This document shows positions 4,140 to 64,000 of a stretch of 64,000 nucleotides of DNA, one piece after another. Under the pieces are notes generated by a model. The model was given only the letters and a program-made list of their open reading frames with translations, was not told the origin of the DNA and ran no database searches. Both the position numbers and the translations under genes were made by a program. Source of the stretch: Prochlorococcus marinus str. GP2 (lineage in GTDB: Bacteria; Cyanobacteriota; Cyanobacteriia; PCC-6307; Cyanobiaceae); the NCBI RefSeq assembly GCF_000759885.1, contig NZ_JNAH01000004.1, positions 186,001-250,000 on the forward strand, in the 5' to 3' direction. How positions within the stretch are numbered: the first letter of the stretch is position 1; each line of letters starts with the position of its first letter.

Positions 4140-5525
4140 ATGGCTGAAGATTTAATTAATAATAAAAATATATATTTCCCCTCATATTTAGGGACTAATG
4201 ACAAATTGAATATTCTTCTGAATAGAACTAGTCAAATTCTTTGTGACTGGTTCTCTAAAGCTGATAAAAATGGTCCTTTACCTTTTGATGAGAGTTTCAA
4301 GGGCATTATGCCTGCGGAAGATGGTAACTCTGAAGAAGATTTATTTTCTGAGATTGAATCTCTTTTGAATAATTCATTTAATCCGGTTCATCCAGGATCA
4401 CTTGCTCACCTTGACCCCCCACCTTTAATTTTTTCTATTTTGGGAGATTTAATTGCTGCTGGTTTAAATAATAATCTTCTTGCTTATGAGTTATCACCAA
4501 GTGTAACTTTGCTTGAAGAATCATTATGCAAATGGTTTGCCATGAAAATAGGGTTTAATGATTTCTCAGGAGGTATAGCTGCAAGCGGAGGTACATTAAG
4601 TAATCTGAATGCACTTATTGCAGCTAGAAATAACGCTGGATTAGGTACAAATCCCAATTCTGTATTACTTGTAAGTGAAGATGCTCATTCTTCCTTCGTT
4701 AAATGTATAAGAGTAATGGGTCTTGATACTACTAATCTTGTCAGGATTAAAACTGATAATCAAGGTAGAATGGACATAAAGGATCTCAGAAAGTCATTAG
4801 ATAAATGTTCAATAGAAAATAAAAAAATATTTGCTATTGTTGCCACCCTTGGGACAACTGTACGAGGAGCCATAGATCCTATTAAAGAAATAAGTGATAT
4901 CTGTAAACAAAGAAACATATGGTTACATATTGACGGTTCAATTGGAGGAATTTTTGCTATAACTTCTATTCCAATAGAAGGTTTAAATAATATTAATCAG
5001 GCTAATTCGATAACGATAAATCCACAAAAAATCATTGGCATAACAAAGACTTCATCTTTGTTATTGGTTTCAAATATTAGTACTTTAGAAAATACTTTTA
5101 ATACTGGACTACCATATATATCATCTAAAGAAAATATTATAAATAGAGGAGAAATAGGTATACAAGGTTCTAGACCAGCAGAAGTTATCAAACTATGGCT
5201 TGGGTTGCGATTTTTAGGTCTGAATGGAATAGAAAATATATTAAATTCATCAATTAAAAGAAAAGATTTTTTTATAAAAAATATTTGTAAAAATAAATTT
5301 GATATATATTCAGGTCCTCTTCATATTGTTTCATTCTTACCAAAGAAACTTGAGCCAAAAGACTCTGATGCATGGACTCAAACTAAACTTAATGAACTAA
5401 TTAACAATAATTTTATGCTTTCTAGACCAAAATTTAAAGGTAAATATTTTTTACGAGTTGTTATGGGAAATTACAATACAAAGGAATCTCATATTGAAGA
5501 ACTATTGAGAGTTTTAAATACTTAA
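4140..5525 (+). CDS. PLP-dependent (group II) amino acid decarboxylase family protein
   Basis: 461 residues, in the aromatic-L-amino-acid/glutamate decarboxylase superfamily. Visible landmarks are the PGSLAHLDPPP entry segment, ASGGTLSNLNAL for cofactor phosphate, SEDAHSSF carrying the ring-stacking histidine, HIDGSIGG with the PLP aspartate, and INPQKIIG with the Schiff-base lysine near residue 296. Cyanobacterial members are often labelled L-aspartate or tyrosine/DOPA decarboxylase, but the substrate cannot be settled from sequence alone. The ATG at 4140 lies 43 bases from the divergent tadA start, so the two probably share a promoter region. Confidence 0.85.
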   Translation: MAEDLINNKNIYFPSYLGTNDKLNILLNRTSQILCDWFSKADKNGPLPFDESFKGIMPAEDGNSEEDLFSEIESLLNNSFNPVHPGSLAHLDPPPLIFSILGDLIAAGLNNNLLAYELSPSVTLLEESLCKWFAMKIGFNDFSGGIAASGGTLSNLNALIAARNNAGLGTNPNSVLLVSEDAHSSFVKCIRVMGLDTTNLVRIKTDNQGRMDIKDLRKSLDKCSIENKKIFAIVATLGTTVRGAIDPIKEISDICKQRNIWLHIDGSIGGIFAITSIPIEGLNNINQANSITINPQKIIGITKTSSLLLVSNISTLENTFNTGLPYISSKENIINRGEIGIQGSRPAEVIKLWLGLRFLGLNGIENILNSSIKRKDFFIKNICKNKFDIYSGPLHIVSFLPKKLEPKDSDAWTQTKLNELINNNFMLSRPKFKGKYFLRVVMGNYNTKESHIEELLRVLNT

Positions 5526-7618: not shown

Positions 7619-8187
7619 TATCTGATTTTTTTTAAATGTTTAATAGGCTTAATAACTAATAATAGCGGTAAAAGCATTAAAAAATGATATCCAATTTTAC
7701 CTACAGAGTATTTCCCTAAATTATATAAAAATATATTAAATTGACTGTAAAAAATAGTTTGTATAAGGTTGTAAAATATTCCTGTTAGATGCATAGCACC
7801 TATTGCTATAAATCCATTTATTAAAAAGTTGCCAATATTTATTTTATTTCTATTATTCAAAACATCAATTATTTTGATTAATGGATATACACCTAATAAA
7901 TATCCAAAATTTGGAGTGAGAAGATATCCTATTGATCCTCCTTGATGAAATAATGGAGCAATAAATAACCCTAAAGTTAAATATATAGAAAATGCTCTGA
8001 AAACAACTTTTTTTTTAAAAATAAGTGTTAATAAAATTATGGTTGGAATTTGCCATGTGATAGGCAACACAAAGCTATTAGTAGATTTAAAGATAAAAGG
8101 TAGTGGAATATAGACAGGTAGCATTGATGTTATTACTAGTGATTGTAGACTCACCAATATCTCAATTAATTTATAAAAATTGAGCAT
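7618..8187 (-). CDS. bioY: Biotin transporter substrate-binding component BioY
   Basis: 189 residues, almost entirely hydrophobic with about six membrane segments. The diagnostic loop GGSIGYLLTPNFGYLLGVYP matches the BioY signature (G-x-x-G-Y-L-x-x-P-x-G-Y-L-L-G). BioY is the S component of an ECF-type biotin importer and can work with a shared energizing module or alone; no EcfA/T gene is next to it here. The gene is followed by lspA with a one-base overlap and is preceded by the MacB-like permease with a 15-base gap. Confidence 0.87.
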   Translation of the reverse strand: MLNFYKLIEILVSLQSLVITSMLPVYIPLPFIFKSTNSFVLPITWQIPTIILLTLIFKKKVVFRAFSIYLTLGLFIAPLFHQGGSIGYLLTPNFGYLLGVYPLIKIIDVLNNRNKINIGNFLINGFIAIGAMHLTGIFYNLIQTIFYSQFNIFLYNLGKYSVGKIGYHFLMLLPLLLVIKPIKHLKKIR

Positions 8188-62027: not shown

Positions 62028-62585
62028 ATGACTTCAAAGGAATTCAGTACTGATAATTTATCTCATATAATATTCGTAACAGGGGGTACAAAGAGTGGAA
62101 AAAGTGAATTTGCAGAACATCTAGCAAAGGAGTCACAGGGTTTAACATATGTTGCATTATCTGATAACAATGTTGATGACAAAGAATGGCAAGAAAAAAT
62201 TACTTTACATAAAATTAGAAGACCTAAAGAGTGGAAATTGATAGAAACGACTGATCTGTTAAATACATTAAGAAAAGAAGATGGTCCACTGTTAATAGAC
62301 TCGATTGGGGGATTTGTAATGGAAAGTCTTGAAAAAGAACATGAAGAATGGTCAATAAAGATGCATTCAGTAATTAGTCATTTAAAAAAAAGAAAAAATA
62401 TAACAATTATTGTTGGAGAACAAGTTGGTTGGAGCTTGGTTTCAGAATATAAAATTGGTAATACTTATGTTGAAAGAATCGGCGAGCTTCAAAAGAGAAT
62501 AACCAAAATATCGAAAGATAATTGGCTTGCAATAAACGGCAGAGCAATCAAAATAGATCAAATAAGTTTAGAAATACCCACTTGA
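62028..62585 (+). CDS. cobU: Adenosylcobinamide kinase / adenosylcobinamide-phosphate guanylyltransferase
   Basis: 185 residues. The P-loop FVTGGTKSGKSEFAEHLA matches CobU, with the phosphorylation-site region further on (TLHKIRRPKEWK, with the histidine) and LLIDSIGGFVMESL. It activates adenosylcobinamide for joining the nucleotide loop, a late step of cobalamin synthesis. Together with cobN and metH this indicates B12 autonomy. Its stop overlaps the trmL start by 4 bases. Confidence 0.88.
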   Translation: MTSKEFSTDNLSHIIFVTGGTKSGKSEFAEHLAKESQGLTYVALSDNNVDDKEWQEKITLHKIRRPKEWKLIETTDLLNTLRKEDGPLLIDSIGGFVMESLEKEHEEWSIKMHSVISHLKKRKNITIIVGEQVGWSLVSEYKIGNTYVERIGELQKRITKISKDNWLAINGRAIKIDQISLEIPT

Positions 62586-63070
62586 AATTGGAAGTATCTC
62601 TTTTTGAACCTAGAATCCCCCAAAATACTGGTAATATTGCCAGATCATGTGCTGCCTTCGACATATCTTTAAATCTTATAGAACCCTTAGGCTTTAAAAT
62701 AGAAGATAAATACTTAAAAAGAGCAGGGTTAGACTATTGGCCATTAGTTAATATTAATAAATACGAAAATTTTGATAAATTTCTGCAGTCAAAGTCAACT
62801 AAAAGAATTATTTCTTTTAGCAAAAAAAATGGGATGTATTTAAATGATTTTAAATTTCTGGAAGATGATGTTTTGTTATTTGGCAGAGAAGACTCAGGAT
62901 TGCCAGATAGCATTATAAACAAAAGCGATTTTTTAATATCAATATTCATGCCCAATTTACAAACTGAAAGTAATGATAATAAAGGAGTTAGAAGTTTAAA
63001 TCTTTCAGTAGCATGCGGTATTGCTATATATGAGGCCCATAAACAAATTAATTTTCAAAATCATAATTAA
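62582..63070 (+). CDS. trmL: tRNA (cytidine(34)-2'-O)-methyltransferase
   Basis: 162 residues, a SPOUT (SpoU-type) methyltransferase. It opens LKLEVSLFEPRIPQNTGNIARSC and contains the knot motifs LFGREDSGLPD and a final SLNLSVACGIAIYEAHKQ. TrmL methylates the wobble ribose of tRNA-Leu. Start TTG at 62582 (TTGA overlap with the cobU TGA); an ATG at 62522 would lie deep inside cobU and adds unrelated residues. Confidence 0.88.
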   Translation: MKLEVSLFEPRIPQNTGNIARSCAAFDISLNLIEPLGFKIEDKYLKRAGLDYWPLVNINKYENFDKFLQSKSTKRIISFSKKNGMYLNDFKFLEDDVLLFGREDSGLPDSIINKSDFLISIFMPNLQTESNDNKGVRSLNLSVACGIAIYEAHKQINFQNHN

Positions 63071-63091: not shown

Positions 63092-63099
63092 ATTGATAT

Positions 63100-63173
<74 letters not shown>

Positions 63174-63187
63174 TTTTCAATACATTA

Positions 63188-63211: not shown

Positions 63212-63262
63212 AAAACTTTTAAACTGCCATAACTAGCTCAAACAATAATAATACTAAATAAA

Positions 63263-63574
63263 ACTAGTGCGGTCTTAGCTTAAAAAAAATAAAAAGCAAA
63301 ATATCCCGAAGCTAGGATAATAGTTCTTGATAATAATTTTAATACTTTTCAACATGTAGCAAATTGTCATCTAATAATCATTCCTGAGATGTGTAAAAAA
63401 AAAGCATTTTAATTAAATATAAAAATAGACAATATAGGTTCAGCTGAAGATTGGCGAGGGCAGTTTGAACAGGCAGAGCTATATCATCAGGAACTGGTGC
63501 AGAAGGGATTAACTATGGCAAAAATTGAAAAAAAAGATAGGCATAACATTTATTATATTACGCTCTTTTTTTGA
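63263..63574 (+). pseudogene. clpS: clpS adaptor pseudogene (three in-frame stops)
   Basis: One continuous frame (phase kept throughout) translates to the ClpS adaptor, the ClpAP/ClpCP recognin that binds N-degron substrates. The first half gives KYPEARIIVLDNNFNTFQHV and NCHLIIIPEMCKKKAF. The second gives IKIDNIGSAEDWRGQFEQAE and LYHQELVQKGLTMAKIEK. TAA codons interrupt at 63281, 63290 and 63410, and no start codon is usable upstream. At the first TAA, VLA is directly followed by the stop. The conserved LDDNFNTF has become LDNNFNTF, IPGM is IPEM, and the expected end after IEK is lost so the frame runs to 63574. The window shows no intact clpS; another copy may exist elsewhere. Confidence 0.82.
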
Positions 63575-63641: not shown

Positions 63642-63822
63642 ATGAAATCTTCTATTAAACAAAAGATATAAAACTATATTTTTTGCTAGGATAATTGCTA
63701 TAAGTATTGTTGCAATATCAAAAAATAATAAGCGATCCTACGAACGGATGAATTCATTGGACAAAAGAATTCACTCTAAAAAAGTGAATAAAAAAGTACT
63801 TTTTATCAGGATAAGTTTTTAA
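63642..63822 (+). pseudogene. Possible degenerate small membrane-protein gene
   Basis: An ATG at 63642 begins MKSSIKQK and reaches a stop at 63669-63671. Shifting by one base at 63666 opens a frame YKTIFFARIIAISIVAISKN followed by KRSYERMNSLDKRI, ending at 63822. This has one hydrophobic helix and a charged tail, like a small membrane protein with a frameshift. It could also be chance in AT-rich sequence. Confidence 0.3.
63769..63804 (-). terminator. Probable terminator of the VKOR gene
   Basis: ATTCACT (63769-63775) pairs with AGTGAAT (63783-63789), 7 bp with a short loop. Next to it is the palindrome AAAAAGTACTTTTT, with T-rich ends on the minus strand. It lies about 30-50 bases after the VKOR stop codon. 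No GC-rich stem, so moderate confidence. Confidence 0.45.
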
Positions 63823-64000
63823 TTTGGACTTAAATTCTTATATCCTGTCAATTCGGATAGTTCCTCAAGTGTTTGGACTCCTATAATTATTTTCCCGTTA
63901 ATTTCCCATGATGGGAAACCTTGAATTTTTTTATCAATGCATAGTTGTGTTTGACTATTTTTACCATCTCTCGCGCACTCAACGACATTAAGTTCCTTAT
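63819..64000 (-). CDS. VKOR family protein with thioredoxin-like C terminus, 5' part outside the window
   Basis: The last 60 codons are visible, ending in TAA at 63821-63819. The C-terminal sequence KELNVVECARDGKNSQTQLC, then IQGFPSWEINGKIIIGVQTL and EELSELTGYK, is the thioredoxin-like domain that in cyanobacteria and plants is fused behind vitamin K epoxide reductase (LTO1). The cis-proline loop FPSWEI and the cysteine in VVECA are visible. The membrane VKOR part and active-site CxxC lie beyond the edge. It forms disulfides in exported proteins. Confidence 0.85.
   Translation of the reverse strand, partial: KELNVVECARDGKNSQTQLCIDKKIQGFPSWEINGKIIIGVQTLEELSELTGYKNLSPN

Follow-up and report, generated by a model that had tools for sequence, protein, structure and literature searches.

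The sequence at 63251..63538 on the forward strand of the Prochlorococcus marinus GP2 window (the whole 64,000-nucleotide stretch of DNA that was analysed, to which all unlabelled positions refer) is almost certainly a young pseudogene of the adaptor gene clpS2. Delivery of substrates by ClpS2 would have become dispensable in the GP2 lineage, selection on the gene would then have lapsed, and AT-biased point mutation would have killed it within about the final fifth of the branch leading to GP2; elsewhere in the genus clpS2 is apparently being lost in parallel. The features of the locus are as follows.

62028..62585, forward strand: cobU, a conserved neighbour.
62582..63070, forward strand: SpoU-family methylase gene (trmL-like), a conserved neighbour that served as rate control; the ORF listing begins it at 62522.
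63099..63174, forward strand: tRNA-Met(CAT), the conserved upstream neighbour.
63251..63538, forward strand: clpS2 pseudogene, original gene span, from the gapless alignment between the sisters' ATG and the coding end and from tblastn.
63251..63253, forward strand: lost start codon, ATA (ATG in the sisters), from the sister alignment.
63281..63283, forward strand: in-frame TAA, codon 11, from translation and sister alignment.
63290..63292, forward strand: in-frame TAA, codon 14, from translation and sister alignment.
63410..63412, forward strand: in-frame TAA, codon 54, within the ClpS core, from translation and sister alignment.
63539..63574, forward strand: run-on past the original end, ending in TGA, the native TAA being lost.
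63819..63998, reverse strand: C-terminal part of the downstream gene (an ORF; VKOR-like in the preliminary description, name unconfirmed).

Translation confirmed what the preliminary description had reported for 63263-63574 (forward strand), namely a single frame that reads through a ClpS core, carries TAA at 63281, 63290 and 63410 and has no start codon; nothing that reaches 40 aa appears in the ORF listing for this interval. The stops are as described, but the alignment with sister genes moves both limits of the frame. The original start, now ATA, lies 12 bases upstream of the one given before (63251, not 63263), and the original end is at 63538, not 63574: GAT at 63536-63538 occupies, in frame, the place of the sisters' TAA, and since this native stop is lost the frame runs on to the TGA at 63574, its last 12 codons being run-on. 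The start and three sense codons were destroyed by base changes, codons 14 and 54 each being two bases away from most of the 13 sisters. The absence of indels claimed earlier holds for the coding span, to which the statement is here confined, as the DNA alignment of the remnant with 13 sister clpS2 genes has no gaps across it; at the native stop MAFFT sets a 13-base gap in the GP2 alignment, and a small indel there or just after it is possible.

The similarity to ClpS is genuine. The raw frame scores 19.6 bits against Pfam ClpS (PF02617), which is below the 23-bit cut-off of the family, and tblastn of the frame against intact orthologues reached at most 74% amino acid identity with E values down to 3e-39, the best matches to intact proteins having 73-74% identity over 82 residues. 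The broken frame is a relic of a ClpS family member, not a working one. At the sequence level it is identified as the orthologue of cyanobacterial clpS2 by its conserved place and by matching ClpS2 better than ClpS1, and the disruption of its frame, together with the intact orthologues found in other genomes, marks it as a pseudogene.

Synteny agrees with this assignment. The remnant lies directly after tRNA-Met, as the open gene does in sister Prochlorococcus genomes, so that both the position beside tRNA-Met and the open state of the gene at the same place in sister genomes, for which the preliminary description had asked, are borne out. A DNA query spanning trmL, tRNA-Met and clpS matched 89 of the 101 genus genomes searched; by manual count, the match ran from query position 1 to 930 or beyond in 57 of the 89 (GP2 included), at 78-82% identity in those other than GP2. 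The genes flanking the remnant are ordinary ORFs with standard stops. A Pfam search with the 59-aa tail of the downstream gene gave no match, and its identity as VKOR is plausible. An inverted repeat resembling GCGGAC...GTCCGC around CTCCACGAGGAT was spotted by eye near the clpS2 site at three loci (L298 and L299, both downstream of tRNA-Met, and L100). In genome G077 (L170), tRNA-Met is followed downstream by two copies of clpS2 (4555-4800 and 7892-8134), separated by about 3 kb.

Rates of substitution suggest that the gene was kept for most of its separate history. Three-way distances with 16 references gave dN 0.156 and dS 0.644 on GP2's own clpS2 branch, a ratio of 0.24 that falls within the range of the 16 intact references (0.10-0.39); trmL on the same branch gave 0.09. 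This ratio, being like that of intact copies, indicates that selection acted along most of the branch, and by itself it does not show relaxed selection. A raw comparison of GP2 with 99 intact clpS2 genes gave a dN/dS of 0.20, against 0.16 for intact pairs, a contrast too blunt to show relaxation. The substitutions at conserved positions noted earlier were found again: of the 66 columns that do not vary among the 99 intact sister genes, 6 are changed in GP2, always at codon position 1 or 2. Among the 11 other rows listed, G141 (itself broken) and L248 had 3 changes each and the remaining nine 0-2. Six such changes fit a late loss.

A forward simulation, started from five present-day genes under an assumed, AT-rich mutation spectrum, retained those runs that acquired three stops and reproduced the dN and dS of the branch (855 of 160,000). 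In these runs the neutral phase took a median of 20% of the GP2 branch (5-95%: 8-41%), with 15-49 neutral changes. Among the accepted runs, 16% produced three TAA and 24% lost the start, so that no special cause is needed for either. As modelled, then, the decay is young and its neutral phase would cover about the last fifth of the branch; the timing is rough, given the length of the branch and the assumed mutation spectrum. The recent loss by point mutation proposed in the preliminary description is supported by the open syntenic sisters, by an intact tree neighbour (G024, see below) and by branch rates that translate into a short neutral phase.

These data also bear on readings in which the gene is not dead. 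The indel-free coding span and a ratio within the intact range would be expected if the remnant were still translated, by readthrough or from another start, into a working adaptor; we consider this extremely improbable, as there are three TAA codons, one of them inside the fold, the start and native stop are both lost, otherwise invariant sites have changed, and the neighbouring ORFs end at standard stops. The low ratio is accounted for by the youth of the loss. Equally remote is a sequencing or assembly error in a functional clpS2: the lesions are known from one assembly, but five separate ones (start, three TAA, native stop) in a short span, along with an excess of replacements at conserved sites and open flanking genes, argue against it. 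Hardly more credible is a spare or transferred copy, the functional ancestral clpS2 lying elsewhere. Four relatives (G008, G191, G163 and G121) do hold two clpS2 copies, one of them dead, yet the GP2 remnant occupies the syntenic place of the sister genes and a profile search of the GP2 genome yielded no second ClpS2. Against a young pseudogene itself stand the score of the raw frame below the Pfam cut-off and the 15-49 neutral changes, which might have brought an indel into a coding span that has none.

The cause of the loss is a separate matter, and one candidate was Aat, the Leu/Phe-tRNA-protein transferase, which adds Leu or Phe to N-termini. That loss of this N-degron-forming enzyme killed ClpS2 is unlikely. 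Aat had no match in any of the 87 genus genomes at least 90% complete, the Synechococcus elongatus control being positive, and all six family genomes with Aat above the cut-off keep a strong ClpS2 match, both of which speak for this reading; however, these six are the only ones among 151 family genomes, about 120 of which retain a strong ClpS2 match. The loss of Aat is far older or wider than that of ClpS2, and genomes without Aat mostly retain ClpS2; Aat loss was thus rejected as the immediate cause and would at most have been predisposing.

Decay of clpS2 extends beyond GP2. Searched with a ClpS2 profile, 251 of 266 genus genomes gave some match; losses were counted by hand from the resulting table in the 87 genomes at least 90% complete. 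There were 72 with an open clpS2, 11 without an intact one and 4 probable assembly gaps; put differently, 13 lacked a strong ClpS2 match and two (GP2 and G141) had a strong but broken one. The 72 open genomes have no stop inside the match save G206, where a TAG costs the last three residues only and which was counted as open; the gene of G199 is open and divergent. To recognise gaps we used metG, which precedes clpS2 by about 3 kb in the window, as an anchor: G207, G222, G122 and G203, which have no orthologous MetG match either, were not accepted as losses since the region is probably unassembled. Nine genomes without a strong ClpS2 match remain after gap removal (G022, G138, G025, G162, G185, G190, G118, G198 and G015).

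The best-supported losses are GP2, G141, G015, G022, G138 and G198. The clpS2 of G141 (L261) is interrupted by TAA at codon 11, where GP2 has its first stop too, and G141 is not the sister of GP2. In the single-contig genome G015 the frame is wrecked by a frameshift and stops, and in G022, also a single contig, the profile search detected no ClpS2. G138 (L298) retains metG-cobU-trmL-tRNA-Met, but all that survives of clpS2 behind them is a 5' piece of about 50 bases (84% identity, local E 9e-9), the remainder being deleted; in G198, a 99% complete draft, the same upstream neighbours are intact and nothing recognisable as clpS2 follows. In the HLI-like genomes G015, G010 and G210, clpS2 is placed elsewhere and not at tRNA-Met, and a candidate anchor gene for that place was dropped as multi-copy. 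For both reasons the five drafts G025, G162, G185, G118 and G190 count as unanchored absences only. Broken extra clpS2 copies were seen beside an open copy on G008:C18, G191:C9, G163:C11 and G121:C5.

In a tree built from MetG for 26 selected genomes, the partner of GP2 is G024 (support 91/90), whose clpS2 is intact. The tree requires six changes between having and lacking an intact ClpS2, at least four of them forced by strongly supported branches; some of the six could be gains, chiefly in the HLI-like part with the other clpS2 place. The has/lacks label shows some clustering on the tree, since only 20 of 500 shuffles needed as few changes. We infer that clpS2 was lost in parallel several times in the genus. 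Of the 151 family genomes, 149 gave a ClpS match of some kind and about 120 (manual count) a strong ClpS2 match, the others, from several genera, having a ClpS1-level, partial or no match (these are drafts, and gaps are possible). Searches of the openly accessible literature brought up no report of ClpS2 loss or of the D34/D66 pocket change described below in Prochlorococcus.

ClpS adaptors bind N-terminal degrons and pass the protein to a Clp chaperone-protease, in cyanobacteria ClpC with ClpP3/R. ClpS2 is reportedly essential in Synechococcus elongatus, a result attributed to Tryggvesson and co-workers in 2015, and to our knowledge hardly any in vivo substrates of cyanobacterial ClpS2 have been identified. 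The cyanobacterial genomes examined contain two ClpS classes, with the motifs LHND...EAH and VLxDxFNTFxHV...GLTMAPxE, the former resembling plastid and bacterial ClpS. Plants have ClpS1 only in the usage of PMC7966870, and by that usage the LHND...EAH class would be ClpS1 and the other ClpS2. The same paper states that cyanobacterial ClpS2 binds L, F, Y, V and I in vitro and that Synechocystis UmuD is degraded with either ClpS present. The GP2 assembly (11 contigs, 1,624,310 bases; clade HLII in PMC4421930) encodes an intact ClpS1, a separate gene from the remnant, at C8:229120-229323 in a 105-aa frame. An intact clpS elsewhere in GP2, one of the outcomes envisaged at the outset, therefore exists as ClpS1, but not as another ClpS2 that the profile search could find. 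The suggestion that a paralogue covers the function stands insofar as ClpS1 remains, but ClpS1 belongs to another ClpS class, and its compensating for ClpS2 is hypothetical. GP2 also has ORFs of 847, 861 and 928 aa with a Clp_N domain, the last just over the cut-off, which are presumably ClpC/ClpB-like. A small protein of about 99 aa has several paralogues in many genomes (L252:420-719 and relatives), and one copy in GP2, G000:C4:39713-40006, contains an internal TAA.

The intact ClpS2 proteins of the genus were compared with other ClpS at N34, D35, D36 and H66 (E. coli numbering), which we take to be the N-degron pocket positions. Among 130 distinct sequences, N34 occurs in 4, D35 in 129, D36 in 5 and H66 in none; position 34 is D in 126, and position 66 is D in 129 and a gap in one, so that genus ClpS2 does not carry the full set of these residues. 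The change is shared by other picocyanobacterial genera (D34 in 23 and D66 in 25 of 26 sequences), whereas 13 of 15 ClpS2 sequences from other cyanobacterial families have N34, and 13 have H66. Both residues are present in 16/16 ClpS1 sequences, a set limited to those above the search threshold and containing no Prochlorococcus ClpS1. The Prochlorococcus ClpS1 frames examined keep N34 and H66 and have P at position 36. This proline, at the position of D36 in other ClpS (an LHNDP motif), was noticed in L001 and L023-L031.

An open sister gene (L123, 4663-4947) scores 48.1 bits against the same 23-bit cut-off, and its predicted model is of moderate confidence (pLDDT 70.7, pTM 0.59). A Foldseek search with this model returned ClpS or ClpS-containing structures as its first 35 matches (best E 4.3e-4), and the open orthologue is thus predicted to have the ClpS fold. 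The aspartates at the N34 and H66 positions may explain why ClpS2 is dispensable. We offer only tentatively, as a possibility somewhat against the odds, that the N34D and H66D changes came first and ended the classical reading of hydrophobic N-termini, leaving a dispensable lineage-specific adaptor that is now being lost in parallel in Prochlorococcus, with GP2, G022 and G015 as natural knockouts.

Taken as a series that begins with an open gene, passes through stops, a frameshift and a deletion scar and ends with absence, these genomes would provide related natural knockouts for proteome comparison, and they suggest that the ClpS2 adaptor is not universally required. The picocyanobacterial pocket change makes a testable prediction of altered specificity.

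With cyanobacterial ClpS2 (PF02617) the GP2 remnant shares orthologous sequence and the motif VLxDxFNTFxHV ... GLTMAPxE; it differs in being dead, and the intact picocyanobacterial copies differ in that D mostly stands in place of the N34 and H66 found in the majority of other ClpS examined. Cyanobacterial and plastid ClpS1 and bacterial ClpS appear to have the same fold, the L123 model matching 7d34, 3o2b and 3dnj, but form a separate class with the LHND...EAH motif. Stops, a lost start and changes at conserved sites are common to the GP2 gene and the pseudogenes of reduced free-living bacterial genomes, from which it differs in having been caught early, with a coding span free of indels, and in that its relatives display other decay types of the same gene. 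For a reduced genome the death of clpS2 is an ordinary event; what makes it valuable is the spread of decay states and the natural knockouts that come with it.
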